Virus record (IMG/VR): IMGVR_UViG_3300023184_000582
Coordinates: 1 to 21,557 of that record
Direction: 5' to 3' (one strand)
DNA length: 21,557 nucleotides
DNA from: a virus
Program-made: the position numbers and the translations under genes
Notes under the pieces: generated by a model
The model's database searches: none
Seen by the model: the letters and a program-made list of their open reading frames with translations, nothing else
Told to the model about the DNA's origin: nothing
In this document: positions 3,735 to 18,599 of the stretch, piece by piece
Layout: every line of letters begins with the position of its first letter
Numbering within the stretch: position 1 is the first letter of the stretch

Positions 3735-4186
3735 TGTGGTATGCCAAAATAGCCAAGGATATCAGTCATATCCCAGATGCTGTGCTGTACTATGAAGACG
3801 AACTTCTGGAAGCAAGAAAAGAAGTTCGTTTAATTGGTAATGTTGAACGGGCTGCGGCTGCATTGCCGGGCGTGGTAGAACAACGATTTAGCCAGCTACA
3901 AGAAATTGAAGCTATTTTAGAATATCTCAACATTGAATTGCGTCGACTCAAAAGTCAGCACTTTCGCAAGTATTTAGAGACCTATCAACGTGCGTTAAGC
4001 AGTAGAGATTGTGACCGTTATGTGGAAGGAGAAGCAGATGTTGTTGACTTTGAAAAAATTATCAACGAGTTTGCTTTGCTCCGAAACAAGTGGTTGGGTA
4101 TTACCAAATCACTTGATCAAAAACAATGGCAGATAACTAACATTGTGAAATTGCGTGTTGCTGGCATGGAAGATGCCAGCATATGA
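3734..4186 (+). CDS. Possible UvsY-like recombination mediator
   Basis: 150 aa, almost entirely helical, with two segments expected to form coiled coils (RFSQLQEIEAILEYLNIELR and the region around FALLRNKWLGITKSLDQKQ). T4 UvsY is a 137-aa helical protein whose end reads ...AIKSRGFAIKHIQDMRAFEAG; here the end reads KSLDQKQWQITNIVKLRVAG, with a similar pattern and position, and the central Arg/Lys-Tyr-rich stretch also corresponds. Size, fold and location two genes after uvsX fit the mediator that loads UvsX onto gp32-coated DNA. Direct sequence identity is low, so this is a hypothesis. The ATG overlaps the previous stop and the 3' end overlaps the next gene by 4 bp (ATGA). Confidence 0.45.
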   Translation: MWYAKIAKDISHIPDAVLYYEDELLEARKEVRLIGNVERAAAALPGVVEQRFSQLQEIEAILEYLNIELRRLKSQHFRKYLETYQRALSSRDCDRYVEGEADVVDFEKIINEFALLRNKWLGITKSLDQKQWQITNIVKLRVAGMEDASI

Positions 4187-4617
4187 AAATAGTTTTGGTT
4201 ACTGGTGGATTTGATCCACTACATGCTGGACACATAGATTATTTTAATCAAGCTCAACAGCTGGGTGACAAATTAATCGTTGGCGTCAACAGCGATGCGT
4301 GGCTCACACGTAAAAAAGGCAAGAATTTTTTGCCTATTGTGGATCGTGTTAGAATTATTGAAAATTTAAAAATGGTCAGCGGTGTTATATTGTTCAATGA
4401 TGACAATGATACTGCTATCGAAGCTATTAAAAACGTAAAATTGTTATATCCCAACGACAGTATAATATTTGCTAACGGTGGTGACAGAAATGCCATAAAT
4501 GTACCCGAAACTACAGTGCCTAACATATTATTTAAATTTGGTGTTGGCGGAAATAGCAAAATAAATTCAAGTAGTGACCTGTTGGAACAGTGGGTTAATT
4601 TTAAAAATAACAATTGA
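4183..4617 (+). CDS. Cytidylyltransferase-like nucleotidyltransferase
   Basis: Belongs to the HxGH nucleotidyltransferase superfamily (glycerol-3-phosphate cytidylyltransferase / RfaE C-terminal-like): Rossmann start KIVLVTGGFDPLHAGHIDYF with the catalytic His14-x-x-His17, then DKLIVGVNSDAWLTRKKG (substrate-contacting Lys/Arg), R(V)RIIENL, and the late motif SKINSSSDLL corresponding to the family's ISSS motif. 144 aa is a normal single-domain length. The reaction would be transfer of a nucleotidyl group from CTP or ATP to a phosphorylated small molecule, releasing pyrophosphate; the actual substrate cannot be told. It is coupled by ATGA overlap to the preceding gene. The role in infection is unknown; a sugar or lipid-head activation step is possible. 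Confidence 0.8.
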   Translation: MKIVLVTGGFDPLHAGHIDYFNQAQQLGDKLIVGVNSDAWLTRKKGKNFLPIVDRVRIIENLKMVSGVILFNDDNDTAIEAIKNVKLLYPNDSIIFANGGDRNAINVPETTVPNILFKFGVGGNSKINSSSDLLEQWVNFKNNN

Positions 4618-7329: not shown

Positions 7330-7836
7330 ATGCAGATATTAACATTAGACAATGAAACATTTTCGTTAAACAACTTACCAGAGGAAGTTGATGAAAACAC
7401 CAGATTTGCTGTATTAGACAACAGTAATCCACAAGAGCCTGACTTTTTCTTTATGCCATTAATATTCCTAGAAAGTTTCAATGCGCCAGCAATAGTGTTG
7501 CAAATTGGCAACGACGAAGTAACAATGCCCATTGATTGGAGTATTGCTGTGGGAGACAGTTCAAGCAGTTGTGATATTGAAATATTGCCATTAACCAGTC
7601 TAAACGACCGTGGATTTGAAGCTCTAGTGTTTAACCCGCTGAGTAGTTTTAGAGTAGAGTTCAAGCCTATTAAAATTATAAACTTTTACAGTGATGTCAA
7701 GTGGTACTTTCCTAAAATGAAAAACGGACAGTTACTGGCAACGCCAACTAGATTTGGAGAAAAGCCGGATTGTGTGTATTTTGTAAAAGAAATATCAAGA
7801 CAAAGTGAAATAATTCAATTGGATAAGATACTATGA
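7330..7836 (+). CDS. Hypothetical protein, beta-rich
   Basis: 168 aa, not recognised beyond a general impression of a protein common near uvsW in aquatic T4-like phages. It is rich in beta-prone segments (FFFMPLIFLESFNAPAIVLQ, MPIDWSIAVGD, VEFKPIKIINFYSDVKWYFP) and ends in CVYFVKEISRQSEIIQLDKIL. No catalytic motif, signal peptide or membrane helix. AAGGA lies 5 nt before the ATG, and the last codons overlap the next start (ATGA), so it is coupled to the oxygenase-like gene that follows. Confidence 0.75.
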   Translation: MQILTLDNETFSLNNLPEEVDENTRFAVLDNSNPQEPDFFFMPLIFLESFNAPAIVLQIGNDEVTMPIDWSIAVGDSSSSCDIEILPLTSLNDRGFEALVFNPLSSFRVEFKPIKIINFYSDVKWYFPKMKNGQLLATPTRFGEKPDCVYFVKEISRQSEIIQLDKIL

Positions 7837-8456
7837 TTACATTAAAAGTTGCGTATTTTCAACCCATAATGATTGCGGTTGATCAAGTAACTCCAGTAGA
7901 ATTTAGTCGTATCTATACCATGAGCTCATCGTTGGCAGATGATACAGAGTTTAGTGTTGCCAACGATAAGAGTCAACACGGCGGCTCCACAATTCAAATA
8001 TATCCCAACAAGAAAGAATTAGATATCAAATGGTTAACTGACTGGTTGGAATCGCTTGCTGGTGGATATATGGAATTGGTAACACAGCAATCGGGCGAAC
8101 TTGATTTGAATTATTGTAAGCCTGTAGTAGATAGTGTACGCATCACTACACAAACAAAGGGCGATTTTCAAGAACTTCATACACATCCGTATGGACATAT
8201 CAGTGGACAGTTGTTTATCAGTTCACCGGCAGGAGATGTACCAGAAGAACAGTTTGGAGCCAAATCTGTATTTAAATTGCCTCAAGCTAAAGACGTCACC
8301 AAGTTCGTTATGACAGACGAGTGGAAATACATGCCGGTGCCAGGCACAGTTGTGTTGTATCCAAGTTTTATAGCCAACACAGTTTATCCATGGCAAGGCG
8401 GCGGCACAAGAACAGTCATGCATTTTGACATCAAGTTGTTTCCAAAGGAGGCGTAA
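7833..8456 (+). CDS. Second 2OG-Fe(II) oxygenase-like protein
   Basis: 207 aa with the same overall layout as the oxygenase-like protein at 1801: opening strand VAYFQPIMIAVD, iron-site candidate ELHTHPYGHISGQLFI (His116, His118) and C-terminal PGTVVLYPSFIANTVYP followed by GGGTRTVMHFDIK (Arg corresponding to the co-substrate site). At the place where relatives usually have the distal iron-ligand His, this protein seems to have Asn182 (SFIANTV). It could be a divergent or inactive member. It overlaps the upstream gene by 4 bp and the downstream gene by 1 bp, so it sits in the middle of an operon. Confidence 0.65.
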   Translation: MITLKVAYFQPIMIAVDQVTPVEFSRIYTMSSSLADDTEFSVANDKSQHGGSTIQIYPNKKELDIKWLTDWLESLAGGYMELVTQQSGELDLNYCKPVVDSVRITTQTKGDFQELHTHPYGHISGQLFISSPAGDVPEEQFGAKSVFKLPQAKDVTKFVMTDEWKYMPVPGTVVLYPSFIANTVYPWQGGGTRTVMHFDIKLFPKEA

Positions 8457-11755: not shown

Positions 11756-12754
11756 ATGAGTCTTATTGCCAGCACACTGTTAAACTACTTGCCCGGTAAG
11801 CGCAAAACAACTCCCAGCGGTTGGATCAGCTTCAATGCAGTTTGTTGTGATGACGACAGAGGTCGCGGTGGCTTTATTGTGAATGGTGGCGATGCAGTCA
11901 GCTATCACTGTTTCAATTGCGGATTCAAATGCAGTTGGCAACCTGGTAGACATATCAGTCAAAAGTTAAATCAATTCATGCGGAATTTAAATATTCCAGA
12001 TGACGTTATTAGTCAATTGCGTTTGGAATCACTTAGACTGGACAGCACCAGCACTGTGGAAGTGCGCAATATAATTCCAAAGTTTGATACTAGGGCATTA
12101 CCCTTGGATGCTATTAGTTTTGAAGAACTAGACACGTTCTTAAAACTTCCAGACGGAGACTATGCAGTTCCAACAAAGTTTACTGAAGCATACGCATACC
12201 TAGTTGAAAGAAAAATCGATCCGTGGAGTTATCCATTTTATTGGGCCAATAAGACAGGATTTAACAATAGACTTATCATTCCGTTCTTGTACAAGGGTGA
12301 CGTAGTTGGATGGACTGCCAGGGCTATTAATGATGCTAAACCTAAGTATTTGTCAGAACAGCAACCAGGTTATGTGTTTAATTTGGACAGTCAACAAGAC
12401 GATAGAGAACTCGTGATTGTGTGTGAAGGACCGTTTGATGCACTAAGTATTGATGGGTGTGCTGTGCTTGGTGCGGAAATCAAAGACAGTCAAAACTGGT
12501 TGCTGAAGCAATTGGGCAAGGAATTGATTTTGGTTCCGGATCGAGATCACGAAGGCCCACGCACAGTGGAGCAAGCAATAGAATATGGTTGGAGTGTCAG
12601 TATGCCCGACTGGCCCCAGGATGTGAAAGATGTAAACGATGCTGTGATAAAGTTGGGTAAGCTGGCCACGCTGTACCTAATTGTATCAGCAAAGGAATCA
12701 AACAGCCTCAAGATACAACTCAAGGCAAAAAAATGGTTTAAGGACACACAATGA
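11756..12754 (+). CDS. 61: DNA primase, gp61-like
   Basis: DnaG-type primase making RNA primers for lagging-strand synthesis together with the gp41 helicase. 332 aa (T4 gp61: 342). The N-terminal zinc-binding region is atypical but present: Cys30, Cys31, and YHCFNCGFKCSW with His51/Cys52, Cys55 and Cys59. The middle domain follows, then a TOPRIM domain with LVIVCEGPFDALSI (catalytic Glu224) and LVPDRDHEGPRTVE (Asp262, Asp264). The C-terminal tail after ~300 is basic and could contact the helicase. ATG 11756 is the only start that preserves the zinc region. It is preceded by a promoter at an unusually short distance, and its stop overlaps the 37-aa gene that follows (ATGA). Confidence 0.88.
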   Translation: MSLIASTLLNYLPGKRKTTPSGWISFNAVCCDDDRGRGGFIVNGGDAVSYHCFNCGFKCSWQPGRHISQKLNQFMRNLNIPDDVISQLRLESLRLDSTSTVEVRNIIPKFDTRALPLDAISFEELDTFLKLPDGDYAVPTKFTEAYAYLVERKIDPWSYPFYWANKTGFNNRLIIPFLYKGDVVGWTARAINDAKPKYLSEQQPGYVFNLDSQQDDRELVIVCEGPFDALSIDGCAVLGAEIKDSQNWLLKQLGKELILVPDRDHEGPRTVEQAIEYGWSVSMPDWPQDVKDVNDAVIKLGKLATLYLIVSAKESNSLKIQLKAKKWFKDTQ

Positions 12755-12864
12755 AAAACTTTCTTTATTTTTTACAAAATCCTCTACGCTGGTATAAAGA
12801 GCGCCAAGCATTTAAAAAACGTTTGGAAGAACTGCGCAAACGTGATCCATTTATCTACAAATGA
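12751..12864 (+). CDS. 37-aa basic protein between primase and carbamoyltransferase
   Basis: Starts with ATG overlapping the primase stop (ATGA) and its own stop overlaps the next ATG in the same way (ATGA), filling the gap exactly. The sequence runs MKNFLYFLQNPLRWYKERQA, then a Lys/Arg/Glu-rich amphipathic helix and ends RKRDPFIYK. A short hydrophobic N-terminus followed by a basic helix suggests a membrane-peripheral or protein-binding peptide. The perfect double overlap is strong evidence that it is translated. Function unknown. Confidence 0.7.
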   Translation: MKNFLYFLQNPLRWYKERQAFKKRLEELRKRDPFIYK

Positions 12865-13814
12865 TACAGTGGGGCATAAACGCACTCAATCACGGCTCCA
12901 GTGTGGCTGTGTTTAAGGATGGCGAATACATCAACAACGTGGTCTCTACACAGGATAATCTGTCTCCGGAAATGTATCGGCACTTTCTAGCATACTATGG
13001 AACACCGGACAGGATCTTTTGGTACGAGAATCCGTGGCTCAAGAAAGCCAGACAGGTACGTGCTGGACAATACACCACAGCCATGGACATGTCAGTGTTG
13101 CCCGGTCGTAAACTCAAACAATGGGGCTTGGGATATGCGCCCATCACATACACACCGCATCATGCCAGTCATGCAGCAGCTGGTTACTATACCAGTCCTT
13201 TCAATCACTGTGCTGTTGTGGTGCTGGATGCTATAGGCGAGTTTGAATGTGCTACAATTTGGAATTGTATGCACGGTGAAATGAAGAAAGTATGGCGTAG
13301 AAGTTATCCACATAGTTTGGGTTTATTCTACAGTGCCTTTACGCAGTTTGCGGGCCTAACACCTATTAAAGAAGAACACATGTTACAAAAAATGGCTGAA
13401 CAGGGCGATCCTTCCCAGTTCAGAAGAACAGTGGGCAACTACTTTGGGGCCGGTGTGGTTGATTTAGAATACAATTTTCATAGAGGTGTCGGGCATTGGG
13501 AAGACAACGAATTAGGTACTTTACAAGCACAATGTGACCTTGCTGCTGCAGTACAAGAACGTTTTGAGATAGAAGTCAGTAAGGTAATGCGTTTAGCTAA
13601 AACGTTGACCAATTCAGACTGTTTGGTATACATGGGCGGATGTGCCATGAATAGCCAGGCCAATCGAACGGAAGTAGAACCCATATTTAAATATCGTTGG
13701 AGTTTGCCCAACCCAGGAGATGCCAGCAGTGCAATTGGTGCAGTTGCATATCACACTAAACAACGAATTCCAAACAACTGGACACCAGTCAAACACATTG
13801 CAATCAACATATAA
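12861..13814 (+). CDS. Carbamoyltransferase, Kae1-like domain only
   Basis: 317 aa of the NodU/TobZ/CmcH-type carbamoyltransferase N-terminal domain (ASKHA/Kae1-like fold): start QWGINALNHGSSVAVFKDGE, metal/ATP motif PHHASHAAAGYY (His100, His101, His104), VLDAIGEFECATIW, then KEEHMLQKMA, the late glycine-rich motif VYMGGCAMNSQANR, and NPGDASSAIGAVAY. In the family a C-terminal YrdC-like domain first makes carbamoyl-adenylate; here that domain is absent, so the protein either relies on a partner or uses another carbamoyl donor. The acceptor is unknown; nucleotide or DNA-base modification is a guess from phage context. Codons overlap the 37-aa gene upstream. Confidence 0.85.
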   Translation: MIQWGINALNHGSSVAVFKDGEYINNVVSTQDNLSPEMYRHFLAYYGTPDRIFWYENPWLKKARQVRAGQYTTAMDMSVLPGRKLKQWGLGYAPITYTPHHASHAAAGYYTSPFNHCAVVVLDAIGEFECATIWNCMHGEMKKVWRRSYPHSLGLFYSAFTQFAGLTPIKEEHMLQKMAEQGDPSQFRRTVGNYFGAGVVDLEYNFHRGVGHWEDNELGTLQAQCDLAAAVQERFEIEVSKVMRLAKTLTNSDCLVYMGGCAMNSQANRTEVEPIFKYRWSLPNPGDASSAIGAVAYHTKQRIPNNWTPVKHIAINI

Positions 13815-13831: not shown

Positions 13832-15301
13832 ATGAATGAACACAACAAAGACAAAGAAAAAGCAAGACAAAATGTAGACTATGGATATGACATCCAGCGT
13901 GTGTATTTGGAAATGATGTTGGCAGATGCTGGCACATTTGTGCGATGCCAAAGCATTTTTGACAGCAAACTGTTTGACCGTAGATTGCAAACATCAGCTG
14001 AATATTTGACCAAGTATGTGAGTGAAAACAATGTGTTGCCCACTGCAGACATCATCAATGCGGCCACTGGATCCAACTTGAAAGCTGCTGAAGATCTGCG
14101 TGAAGAACACTTTGAATGGTTACTGAATGACTTTGAAACGTTTACCCGCCACAAAGGCCTGGAGCAGGCTATTCTGGAGTCAGCTGACCTGTTGGAAAAA
14201 GGCGAGTATGGTCCAGTGGAAGAAAAGATCAAACGTGCTGTGCAAGTGGGCCTGCAACGAGACATGGGCACTGACTACTTTGAAGATCCCCGTGCTCGTT
14301 TGGCTCGAATCAAGGACAAGAATGGACAGATCAGCACTGGTTGGAAAAGCATCGATGACAAGTTATACGGTGGGTTCAATCGTGGAGAGCTGAACATTTT
14401 TGCAGCAGGATCAGGAGTGGGCAAGAGCCTGTTCCTGGCCAATCTTGGTGTGAACTATGCTCTGGCCGGGCTCAATGTGCTGTATTTGACCTTGGAGCTC
14501 AGTGAGGATCTGGTGTGCATGCGTATCGATGCCATGACCACTGGAATCCCCACTAGAGAGATTTTCCGCAACTTGGATGATGTGGAAATGAAAGTGCGGA
14601 TCATTGGCAAGAAATCGGGCCGCTTACAGGTCAAATACATGCCCTCGGGCAAAACTGCCAATGACATTCGTGCGTACATGAAAGAGTATGAAATCAAAAT
14701 GGGTCATAAAATTGATGTGCTGTTGGTGGACTACATGGACTTGATCATGCCACTCAGCAAGCGTATCTCAGCTGAAAACTTGTTTGTGAAAGACAAGTAT
14801 GTGTCAGAAGAGCTGAGAAACTTGGCTGTGGAAAAGAACTGTGTGTTTGTGACTGCGGCACAGCTGAATCGAGGTGCTGTGGAAGAAGTGGAGTTTGATC
14901 ACAGTCACATATCAGGTGGACTCAGCAAGATACAAACAGCGGACAATGTGTTTGGTATCTTCACCAGCAGAGCCATGCGTGAACGTGGACGCTATCAAAT
15001 ACAGCTGATGAAAACACGTTCATCAAGTGGAGTGGGCATGAAGATTGATTTGGATTTCAATGTGGACACACTGAGAATATCAGACTTGGATGAATCGGAC
15101 ACGTATGGAGCACAAGCCAGTGCGGGTTCAGCCCTGCTGACCAGTATCAAACAGCGCCAAACCATAGCTGACACTGCCAGCAGCACTGGTTGGGCCCGTG
15201 CCACACCTGTGGAAGGATTTGACTTGGCACGACCCCAAGCCCAAGTGGAATCAAGCAAACTGAGAGAACTGTTGAACAACTTGCCCACAGACGACGTGTA
15301 A
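13832..15301 (+). CDS. 41: Replicative DNA helicase, gp41-like (DnaB family)
   Basis: Hexameric 5'-3' helicase of the replication fork, partner of the gp61 primase encoded just upstream. 489 aa (T4 gp41: 475). N-terminal helical domain (1-150) with RVYLEMMLADAGTFVRCQSI; linker; RecA-like core starting TGWKSIDDKLYGGFNRGELN; Walker A AAGSGVGKS (191-199); YLTLELSEDLVCMRIDAMTTG (motif H1a with catalytic Glu); Walker B IDVLLVDYMDLI; motif H3 VTAAQLNRGAVEE; and H4 region RYQIQLMKTRSSSGVG. The last ~60 residues are a variable tail. The promoter lies only 5 nt from the ATG and no SD is seen. Confidence 0.93.
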   Translation: MNEHNKDKEKARQNVDYGYDIQRVYLEMMLADAGTFVRCQSIFDSKLFDRRLQTSAEYLTKYVSENNVLPTADIINAATGSNLKAAEDLREEHFEWLLNDFETFTRHKGLEQAILESADLLEKGEYGPVEEKIKRAVQVGLQRDMGTDYFEDPRARLARIKDKNGQISTGWKSIDDKLYGGFNRGELNIFAAGSGVGKSLFLANLGVNYALAGLNVLYLTLELSEDLVCMRIDAMTTGIPTREIFRNLDDVEMKVRIIGKKSGRLQVKYMPSGKTANDIRAYMKEYEIKMGHKIDVLLVDYMDLIMPLSKRISAENLFVKDKYVSEELRNLAVEKNCVFVTAAQLNRGAVEEVEFDHSHISGGLSKIQTADNVFGIFTSRAMRERGRYQIQLMKTRSSSGVGMKIDLDFNVDTLRISDLDESDTYGAQASAGSALLTSIKQRQTIADTASSTGWARATPVEGFDLARPQAQVESSKLRELLNNLPTDDV

Positions 15302-15824: not shown

Positions 15825-15851
15825 TCGCGAAGCGCAGCGCGAAAATTTTTT
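15825..15851 (+). terminator. Possible terminator after the GNAT-like gene
   Basis: TCGCG (15825-15829) pairs with CGCGA (15838-15842) around an 8-nt loop; three A residues and then T6 (15846-15851) follow. It starts 1 bp after the stop codon. The stem is short, so strength is uncertain. Confidence 0.4.
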
Positions 15852-15887
15852 GTACGCGAAGCGCAGCGGCAAAACGCGAAATCAGCG
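15826..15887 (+). repeat. GC-rich repeat cluster with GCGAAGC mini-hairpins
   Basis: CGCGAAGCGCAGCG occurs at 15826-15839 and again at 15855-15868, with a degenerate third copy (CGCGAAATCAGCG) at 15875-15887. Each complete copy contains GCGAAGC, a heptamer known to fold into an unusually stable DNA mini-hairpin with a GAA loop. Non-coding between the GNAT-like and desaturase genes. Confidence 0.85.
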
Positions 15888-15942
15888 TTGCTGTTGGCAG
15901 TGCCCAGCGCCAATAATTTTGCTGTGCGCAGATAAGTACACT

Positions 15943-16644
15943 GTGAACACAGTGATCTACACCTTGATAATGACTCACATCACCATTGCATGTGTGACGC
16001 TGTACCTGCACAGGAGCCAAACACACCGAGCTGTGCAATTTCACCCAGTAGTGAGCCATGTGATGCGAGCATGGCTTTGGCTCACCACTGGCATGGTTAC
16101 CCGCCAATGGGTGGCCATACACCGTAAACATCATCAACGATCGGACCAAGTGGGCGATCCACACAGTCCACAGATCCACAGCATATGGCGTGTGCTGTTT
16201 GGAGGAGCATTGCTGTATCACACAGCCAGCCAAGACACTGACATGGTTGACTCCTTGAGCCGGGACTGCCCTGATGATTGGATTGAACGCAACCTTTACT
16301 CCGCACACAGTCGCTGGGGCATTCTCTTAATGCTGATCATAGATTGCCTGTTATTTGGGCCCTGGGGCGTGGCAGTGTGGGGTGTTCAAATGATATGGAT
16401 TCCGTTCTGGGCAGCTGGTGTGATCAACGGAGTGGGGCACTGGTGGGGATATCGCAACACTGACACTAGAGACACCAGCCGTAATATTGTGCCTTGGGCT
16501 GTGTGGATTGGCGGTGAAGAACTGCACAACAATCATCATGCAGATGGTGCCAATGCCAAGTTCAGTCAAAAGTGGTGGGAGTTTGATCTGGGCTGGATGT
16601 ACATCTGTGTGTTGAGATTCTTGAAATTGGCCACAGTTAGATAA
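15943..16644 (+). CDS. Fatty-acid desaturase
   Basis: Integral-membrane acyl desaturase of the delta-9 type, adding a double bond to membrane acyl chains with a di-iron centre. All three histidine boxes are present: HRSQTH (23-28), HRKHH (60-64) and HNNHH (195-199), plus GDPHSP after box two and GVGHWWGYRN before box three, as in the family. Two hydrophobic stretches (NTVIYTLIMTHITIACVTLY; LLMLIIDCLLFGPWGVAVWG) span the membrane. About 233 aa is short compared with ~300 for bacterial enzymes but usual for phage versions. The frame is open to a TTG at 15850, which would translate the repeats; I take GTG 15943, with GTG 15952 or ATG 15970 as alternatives. No good SD is seen. Probably remodels host membrane lipids during infection. 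Confidence 0.85.
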   Translation: MNTVIYTLIMTHITIACVTLYLHRSQTHRAVQFHPVVSHVMRAWLWLTTGMVTRQWVAIHRKHHQRSDQVGDPHSPQIHSIWRVLFGGALLYHTASQDTDMVDSLSRDCPDDWIERNLYSAHSRWGILLMLIIDCLLFGPWGVAVWGVQMIWIPFWAAGVINGVGHWWGYRNTDTRDTSRNIVPWAVWIGGEELHNNHHADGANAKFSQKWWEFDLGWMYICVLRFLKLATVR

Positions 16645-17714: not shown

Positions 17715-18599
17715 TTAACGGCTGTTGCGCATACACGTTACTTCAGCCACTGCCCGCCACTTGTCCGGGAAGCCATGCTTCAAGTCAGCTACCTTCAGCA
17801 CTGTACGCAAGCTCAGCTCACGCAAGCGTGGCACATTGGCCTTCACAAAGTCCACTACCTCCATGGCTTGGTAGGGTTCGAACTCATACTTGTCCAGCAT
17901 GCCGCACTCGTTCACCACCTGCTCGATACGCAGGATCTTCTCACGCTCTGTGTCGATAGTCAAGTCCAAGTAGTGGCATCTGCTCTCCAATGCTTCCAAG
18001 TGGTCACGCAGCTTCTTTGACTTAACGTGATCAAACTTGATGTTGGTGATAAAGATAGCACCGCCCCGGAACTCAAAGCTATCTGGCACACCTTCTCTGC
18101 GCAACAAATGGCTGTCAGTGTTCCAGTGGATCATACGCTTGGAACTGGTGTCCAATGCTGCCTTCAGGATGTTGAGACTCAAGTCATCCAGCAACACTGA
18201 ATCACAGTCATCAAACACTAGAATGTTCTTGGCATCCTTGTAGTGATACAGCTTGCTGTACAGTCCCAAGGCACTCATAGCACCTTTCACCACTTCGTAC
18301 TTCTTCAGCTTCTCGTCCTGTGCTACATTGGCAAACACATCATGCTTGCTCAGCACAGTCTCAACACCGTGGCTCTTGCCCACACCCGGCGGACCAGTCA
18401 CAATCATGGCACGTACCTTGCCGCTCTTAACTGCACGAGTCATGTCGTCCAGGATCTCAAAACGATCACGCAGGCGATCCAGGATCTCCGCATCTGTTTC
18501 TCGGCTGAGATCCTTCTTTACAGGGTCCACTTCCAACGTTTTGGTTGTGACTTCTGATTGCAATGCCATCAGCATCTTTGATGTAACTACTTTGGCCAT
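17715..18599 (-). CDS. AAA-family ATPase
   Basis: 294 aa, single AAA ATPase domain: Walker A GPPGVGKS (69-76), Walker B NILVFDDCDSVL, sensor-1-like GGAIFITNIKFD, then Arg-containing segment RDHLEALESRC and a C-terminal helical lid (RLRELSLRTVLKVADL). The N-terminal ~55 residues are charged and helical. It resembles AAA proteins of T4-like cyanophages; it is not the clamp-loader gp44 as far as I can see. Function unknown, possibly a remodelling or replication-related ATPase. It starts with an SD AGGAGCGAGA and its own promoter, and its transcript ends in the hairpin cluster. Confidence 0.85.
   Translation of the reverse strand: MAKVVTSKMLMALQSEVTTKTLEVDPVKKDLSRETDAEILDRLRDRFEILDDMTRAVKSGKVRAMIVTGPPGVGKSHGVETVLSKHDVFANVAQDEKLKKYEVVKGAMSALGLYSKLYHYKDAKNILVFDDCDSVLLDDLSLNILKAALDTSSKRMIHWNTDSHLLRREGVPDSFEFRGGAIFITNIKFDHVKSKKLRDHLEALESRCHYLDLTIDTEREKILRIEQVVNECGMLDKYEFEPYQAMEVVDFVKANVPRLRELSLRTVLKVADLKHGFPDKWRAVAEVTCMRNSR

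Follow-up and report, generated by a model that had tools for sequence, protein, structure and literature searches.

A single-domain carbamoyltransferase of phage, encoded next to a conserved microprotein gene and possibly supplied with carbamoyl-AMP in trans

The gene examined here encodes a protein of 317 aa, which is a genuine single-domain descendant of the class III carbamoyltransferases: the Kae1-like domain is kept, complete with its iron site, the YrdC-like C-terminal domain is missing, and the start of the gene overlaps the end of a microprotein gene. In the available text of a 2022 structural paper (PMC9633730), all characterised class III carbamoyltransferases are described with both catalytic domains; lacking the YrdC-like one, the protein works at best like the second half of a class III enzyme. 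In the reading tentatively favoured here, whose chance of being right is put at a little under even, it would be the transfer half of a split carbamoyltransferase, receiving carbamoyl-AMP in trans, with the microprotein as a partner.

The window, i.e. the whole stretch of DNA analysed, is the 21,557-base virus record IMGVR_UViG_3300023184_000582. It looks T4-like by gene content, with a RecA-type recombinase, a gp32-like protein (below the cut-off), helicases, a primase and two 2OG-Fe(II) oxygenases, the latter being separate PF13759 genes at 1777-2433 and 7833-8456 (+). The nearest relatives of its replicative helicase, at about 50% identity, are found in large phages such as PA5oct and Atu_ph07. 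The features of the region of interest are reported in Table 1.

Table 1. Features of the carbamoyltransferase region, in positions of the window.
Feature	Position	Strand	Basis
DNA primase (gp61-like), upstream neighbour of the carbamoyltransferase	11756..12754	+	phrog_47, E 4.4e-45
Microprotein gene, 37 aa; helix 2-31 and DPFIYK tail (model)	12751..12864	+	sequence, conservation, model
Single-domain (Kae1-like) carbamoyltransferase, 317 aa, without YrdC-like C-terminal domain	12861..13814	+	Pfam, PHROG, AlphaFold2, VIA-align
His11 codon, probable general base	12891..12893	+	invariant in homologues; conserved-loop position
Site (about residue 27/28) of the E-R-x4-K loop of full-length relatives, deleted here	12939..12944	+	alignment
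Iron ligands His100 and His104 (HHASH), corresponding to GdmN H133 and H137	13158..13172	+	phmmer alignment
Iron ligand Asp123, corresponding to GdmN D156	13227..13229	+	phmmer alignment
Iron ligand Asp287, corresponding to GdmN D333	13719..13721	+	phmmer alignment
DnaB-like replicative helicase (gp41-like), downstream neighbour of the carbamoyltransferase	13832..15301	+	Pfam, PHROG

The position of the gene between primase and helicase, pointed out in a sequence-only reading of the same DNA, is borne out; 17 bases separate its stop from the helicase start. The same two genes stand on either side in 58 of the 64 short loci with enough flank on both sides, while no relative of the window's primase is found beside the gene in 7 of the 73 with enough upstream DNA; loci with the gene less than 600 bases from an end, and repeated upstream regions, were dropped from these counts, as from the microprotein and codon counts given below. 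Three of the 22 full-length loci with enough flank (L028, L064, L066) carry a full-length relative in the same slot, which is therefore not peculiar to the short form.

Elsewhere in the window, a protein with the histidine boxes HRSQTH, HRKHH and HNNHH is encoded at 15850-16644 (+): it matches PHROG 35201 (unknown function), has no Pfam match at E <= 0.01, and its boxes resemble those of fatty-acid desaturases. A cytidylyltransferase-like protein (PF01467) is found at 4183-4617 (+); a tandem repeat (66-base unit, 3.1 copies) occupies positions 2-208, within an Ala/Gln-rich open frame. From about 16651 on, a block of ORFs lies on the minus strand, including that of an AAA-type ATPase (17715-18599), with weak Pfam matches below the cut-off.

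The protein matches Carbam_trans_N (PF02543) with E 5.9e-25 (88.9 bits, cut-off 24), over profile positions 111-344 of 346, and nothing follows this domain in Pfam. The match to PHROG 1601, "Nol-like carbamoyltransferase" (E 9.6e-21), covers only positions 3-325 of 528, so that about the last 200 are absent; phmmer matches to solved carbamoyltransferases are likewise confined to their N-terminal halves. The C-terminal domain (Carbam_trans_C, PF16861) gives no match at E <= 10 anywhere in the window, while it is present in nine two-domain relatives scanned identically: a gene split in two, whose C-domain would lie immediately downstream or at another place in the window, is thereby ruled out. 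No Sua5/YrdC domain (PF01300) scores over the cut-off in the window, and the TsaD profile (PF00814) reaches 12.7 bits, below its cut-off of 24.8 (E 0.11). Both statements of the sequence-only reading about the domains thus stand: the Kae1-like domain is complete, with the HHASHAA and GGCAMNS motifs, and the YrdC-like domain is missing.

The AlphaFold2 model of the protein, based on a 50-sequence alignment, has a mean pLDDT of 95.2 and a pTM of 0.92. When compared by VIA-align, it superposes on GdmN (Z 31.5, rmsd 2.6, 303 residues) and on TobZ (Z 30.1, rmsd 3.1, 302 residues), while Z does not exceed 19.7 for TsaD/Kae1 proteins; class III carbamoyltransferases top the rows, the want of a better-matching family proving nothing in itself. 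The four iron ligands reported in Table 1 are those named for GdmN (PMC9633730, in the text available). The putative general base, His11, is equated with GdmN H27 or TobZ H14 on the strength of its location in a conserved loop rather than of a direct residue alignment; the role of H27 comes from the same partial source (PMC9633730), and a TobZ H14N variant is among the structures listed. All five residues (H11, H100, H104, D123, D287) are invariant among the homologues compared, whether short (62 of 62), longer (71 of 71) or distant (17 of 17). According to the available portion of the GdmN study (PMC9633730), density for AMP, ATP and carbamoyl-AMP was seen only in the Kae1-like domain. Since iron site and catalytic histidine are kept without exception, the remaining domain has most likely retained both carbamoyl-AMP binding and carbamoyl transfer.

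The short length is not peculiar to this record. The lengths of 182 closed, distinct homologous ORFs from viral contigs are bimodal: 81 fall at 300-339 aa and 79 at 480-519 aa; of the remainder, 15 are longer, mostly from a distant enzyme group, and 7 lie elsewhere (four below 300 aa, the others at 372, 446 and 464 aa). As 81 distinct closed homologues, from many contigs, share the same length range, truncation or assembly error is ruled out, and the short length is to be regarded as a stable state. In a single case (L153:5001-5951, counted among the 74 short loci described below), the short carbamoyltransferase is interrupted, leaving two ORFs of 147 and 141 aa.

In a tree of 150 representatives, built on the Kae1 columns after dropping open-ended ORFs, ORFs below 285 aa and rows more than 82% identical, the 62 short forms (290-339 aa) make up one clade (SH-aLRT 96), nested inside the longer phage group, with the distant homologues outside; among the 71 longer rows are L236 (372 aa), L057 (446), L280 (464) and L225 (533). 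Support is weaker in a thinned tree of 59 rows without the loop columns, which left out the distant rows and L057, L058 and L271: there, one or two changes are required, two in the free tree. Yet, when the short forms are held together, the likelihood is slightly higher than that of the free tree (p-AU 0.557). Both are "quick" trees without bootstrap. Several independent losses of the domain are disfavored by the single clade of the main tree and by the constrained likelihood; as the constrained tree is slightly more likely in spite of the two changes in the thinned one, a single loss is preferred, not proven, and would be, on the sequences at hand, the most likely origin of the short forms.

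A second difference accompanies the missing domain. Near residue 30, 70 of 71 longer and all 17 distant proteins have a loop with the pattern E-R-x4-K; all 62 short ones lack it, the site being deleted (51 proteins, the window protein included) or altered (11). The only longer protein without it is L057, the short-started ORF of 446 aa; the row of L024 starts one codon late in the loop alignment. The bare pattern also occurs within the first 75 residues of 28 of the 62 short proteins, in none of them within the first 44. By its distribution, the loop may serve the adenylation half-reaction or the interface between the domains.

The microprotein gene, which the sequence-only reading does not mention, ends in a TGA which overlaps the ATG of the carbamoyltransferase (ATGA). 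Its occurrence was evaluated in 74 short, 27 full-length and 4 partial loci, all distinct and chosen by carbamoyltransferase similarity alone. An ORF of this kind is present within 2.5 kb upstream in 72 of the 74 short loci, in 69 of which it overlaps or abuts the enzyme start, in 18 of the 27 full-length ones (10 overlapping or abutting) and in 4 of the 4 partial ones; on the reverse strands of these loci, 1.19 Mb in all, there is none, by a slightly looser test. It is missing within 2.5 kb in nine full-length loci (the L076-L088 group) and in the short loci L092 and L093. An SGNH-like gene (so judged by eye), or another one, sometimes stands between microprotein and enzyme.

The microprotein tail is nearly invariant. 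Among 94 microproteins upstream of carbamoyltransferases, 85 end in DPFIYK, the others in DPYIYK (4), DPFIY (4) and DPFIYR (1); the count is unpicked, within the looser pattern used. A separate alignment of 20 microproteins was picked by tail pattern, so that the tail shared there is no evidence of invariance. The codons of conserved residues vary synonymously, at P, I, R and L, so that a signal at the nucleotide level, e.g. a ribosome-binding site, is ruled out; a TGA end (85 of 91 genes) and AAA as last Lys codon (in most) are common because the overlap dictates them. The window microprotein, without Pfam or PHROG matches, is modeled as a helix (residues 2-31) followed by a non-helical tail (pLDDT 81).

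The association also holds when the search starts from the microprotein. When DNA was scanned for the tail codons, without regard to the enzyme, at least 119 stretches were found; among the 119 listed, a carbamoyltransferase lies within 1.8 kb downstream in 107, and within 60 bases in 81. Of the other 12, six have less than 1 kb of downstream DNA, while L216 has a carbamoyltransferase further down. A scan of cellular genome contigs returned 14 loci, 4 of them with the microprotein upstream; in the isolates Streptomyces hoynatensis and Glycomyces lechevalierae it precedes full-length, two-domain homologues and ends in DPFLYK. Further along the Glycomyces cluster come DUF6071 and proteins of the epimerase and GFO/IDH/MocA families, a sugar-type setting. 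In the class to which the Streptomyces genome belongs, the tail pattern was matched by this genome alone out of 394: the module must be rare there. In a Plantactinospora genome (L316) a microprotein-like ORF ending in DPFLYK lies apart from the carbamoyltransferase. DUF6071 recurs near both kinds of carbamoyltransferase (L306:6471-7181; L302:2841-3701; L050:11127-11909); no open-licence PMC paper naming this family was found.

The microprotein was not found in 12 stretches around the distant two-domain enzymes of phages or in seven stretches of annotated phages, and tblastn gave no match in annotated phages even at E 10; in MH319727 (L057), the carbamoyltransferase relative follows a similar ORF, which ends differently. 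In the open-licence PMC papers searched, none contains the DPFIYK string, and among those listed none deals with the microprotein or with a one-domain phage carbamoyltransferase. Microprotein and carbamoyltransferase are possibly a new two-gene module. The tail might even enter the Kae1-like active site, as a substrate or an essential co-factor, in a module shared by phages and some Actinomycetota, of which one large phage clade would have kept only a one-domain enzyme and a peptide of about 37 aa, with activated carbamoyl coming from another enzyme; this fuller picture seems rather unlikely.

As for the source of activated carbamoyl, the sequence-only reading had called for a host YrdC/TsaC-like partner or a separate phage protein. 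A candidate for the latter does exist: when searched with PF16861, 14 of the 18 short-form contigs of at least 76 kb (6 of 7 and 8 of 11 in two contig sets, near-copies included) encode a second, separate two-domain carbamoyltransferase. Beyond their own copy, none of 12 full-length-form contigs does, nor does the 39-kb G008. Within the limits of possibly incomplete records, the second enzyme is absent from G003 (383 kb), G016 (110 kb), G020 (270 kb) and G022 (177 kb) and from all five short-form contigs below 76 kb; its presence in every short-form phage thus finds no support in these contigs. The difference between 14 of 18 and 0 of 12 gives a Fisher p of 2e-5, uncorrected for kinship, and of 2e-4 after removing G009, G015, G031 and G034 as near-copies (identity over the tested stretch held in three of the four pairs, not in G030/G031). 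As the short state probably arose once, the co-occurrence cannot count as independent evidence. In the tree, the second enzyme, which is remote in sequence, groups with the S-CAM1 nol protein; in five loci it lies amid genes which look, by eye, like tail genes. Among neighbouring ORFs, a glycosyltransferase-9 match, below the cut-off, occurs in two of five scanned; of three others, one has DUF6071 above the cut-off and one just below it.

The proposed check for a YrdC-like gene elsewhere in the genome came out negative: no PF01300 match over the cut-off, and hence no phage-encoded YrdC/TsaC, is found, either in the window or among 36 related contigs, which may be incomplete; a copy in the host would also be enough. 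The 11 sub-threshold matches (1 + 10) all fall inside the C-domains of full-length carbamoyltransferases. For G003, G016, G020 and G022, with neither second enzyme nor YrdC/TsaC, supply by the host must consequently be considered. Carbamoyl-AMP is described, in the text available, as labile and channelled by a passage inside a single protein (PMC6022934), which speaks against its diffusing freely; TsaC/TsaD is given as a naturally split pair in the accessible part of another paper (PMC6594144).

The presence of a second enzyme in 14 of 18 contigs, together with the loss of the adenylation parts, would also fit a catalytically idle protein, acting as a regulatory or acceptor-binding subunit of the two-domain carbamoyltransferase of the phage. 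This is improbable: an idle subunit would not need iron ligands and catalytic histidine, which are invariant in 62 of 62 short proteins, and the supposed partner belongs to a distant clade and is not found in four of the 18 large contigs.

The acceptor may be sought, first, in the microprotein itself, whose DPFIYK C-terminus would be carbamoylated in a HypF/HypE-like manner, the modified peptide then acting on the host or in replication. The recurrence of this tail in 85 of 94 microproteins, its modeled non-helical state beyond the helix, and the occurrence of the pair with short, full-length and cellular enzymes agree with it, and carbamoylation of the HypE C-terminus by HypF is a precedent (PMC6594144, in the text available). 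The window peptide, however, has no cysteine, the sugar-type genes of some full-length loci suggest small-molecule acceptors, and the microprotein is missing from the full-length and short loci mentioned above: we regard such a substrate role as quite improbable.

A different product would result if the enzyme used host threonylcarbamoyl-AMP, made by TsaC/Sua5, either to yield a threonylcarbamoylated product or to disturb the formation of t6A in tRNA. TsaC/Sua5 (PF01300) is present in 14 of 14 control bacteria and archaea, so that hosts in general supply this compound; no activation domain would be necessary in the phage, as fits G003 and G020, and TsaD-like folds do match the model (Z about 19). 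Still, the protein is far closer to the NodU/TobZ type, both by profile (E 5.9e-25 for Carbam_trans_N versus 0.11 for TsaD) and by fold (Z 31 versus about 19), and this use of the host pathway is judged decidedly improbable.

From the primase-helicase position, the sequence-only reading had considered a DNA-linked or nucleotide acceptor conceivable. A carbamoyltransferase from phage contigs that makes 5-carbamoyloxymethylcytosine is known: according to the portion of the report available (PMC8670742), it is a 63 kDa enzyme, with carbamoyl phosphate and ATP in its assay, and was chosen from a contig where a thymidylate-synthase homologue is also encoded. Thymidylate-synthase/dCMP-hydroxymethylase homologues (PF00303) are found in 6 of 12 full-length-form contigs, in one of the 18 short-form contigs of at least 76 kb, whose records may be incomplete, and in none of 21 window ORFs scanned with Pfam. 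Carbamoylation of hydroxymethylated bases in phage DNA or dNTPs, as by that enzyme, is accordingly very unlikely for the short form, in spite of the 58 of 64 loci with the primase-helicase arrangement: such homologues are nearly absent, the known enzyme, of 63 kDa, was assayed from carbamoyl phosphate and ATP, the same slot also holds full-length enzymes, and 7 of 73 loci lack a relative of this primase, so that a DNA acceptor has little support. Some full-length-enzyme loci hold sugar-type genes (judged partly by eye); as similar genes also accompany one cellular relative and known Nol-like genes, the acceptor would, by analogy, more likely be a small molecule of sugar type than DNA.

The favored reading, of a split carbamoyltransferase, starts from an ancestral phage O-carbamoyltransferase which would have had both Kae1-like and YrdC-like domains and would have been already paired with the microprotein gene; this enzyme would then have lost the YrdC-like adenylation domain, most likely once, along with the N-terminal E-R-x4-K loop. 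Carbamoyl-AMP, or a related acyl-AMP, would have to come in trans: the second two-domain carbamoyltransferase which these phages encode would often be the source, to judge by co-occurrence, and the host would serve otherwise. The microprotein, given its recurrent association, may be a dedicated partner, its near-invariant tail probably docking on or into the enzyme.

A stable, diversified clade without the activation half, which keeps the transfer site, suggests that the half-reactions are separable outside the t6A pathway. The short clade is natural material for testing the hand-over of labile carbamoyl-AMP, and the microprotein provides a testable handle on partner or acceptor.

Among known systems, the class III O-carbamoyltransferases (NodU/CmcH/TobZ/GdmN/NovN; PF02543 + PF16861) share with the window protein the Kae1-like fold (Z about 30), the four iron ligands and the HHxSH and GG..N motifs; unlike them, it has no YrdC-like domain and is paired with a microprotein gene. 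The absence of E-R-x4-K sets it apart from its two-domain phage relatives, with which, rather than with TobZ/GdmN, the comparison was made. The PHROG 1601 "Nol-like" proteins of cyanophage and pelagiphage (S-CAM1, P-SSM2, HTVC008M, S-SCSM1) are also phage-encoded, with a homologous N-terminal domain, but are 510-571 aa long, with both Pfam domains; the available part of one paper tabulates cyanophage carbamoyltransferase genes at 1524-1803 bp only (PMC3037559). The S-CAM1 copy is 24.6% identical over 62% of the query, while those of P-SSM2 and HTVC008M give no match at E 1e-3. The S-CAM1, HTVC008M and S-SCSM1 copies lie near sugar genes, that of P-SSM2 between purM and gp43, and no microprotein is found near the copies examined. 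The 5-hydroxymethylcytosine carbamoyltransferase (Yang et al. 2021, eLife) is likewise a phage-contig carbamoyltransferase, and its assay contains Fe(II), ATP and carbamoyl phosphate; it differs by its 63 kDa and by the thymidylate-synthase homologue on its contig. HypF has its own YrdC-like domain, and the window microprotein has no Cys; the likeness to HypF/HypE lies in a Kae1-like domain acting on a protein C-terminus. TsaD/Kae1 proteins are 11-16% identical to the window protein, with Z 16-20 in the listed rows, and their Pfam cut-off is not reached; together with the separate TsaC/Sua5, they nevertheless offer, in the t6A pathway, the example of a single-domain transferase of Kae1 fold fed by a separate adenylating protein.
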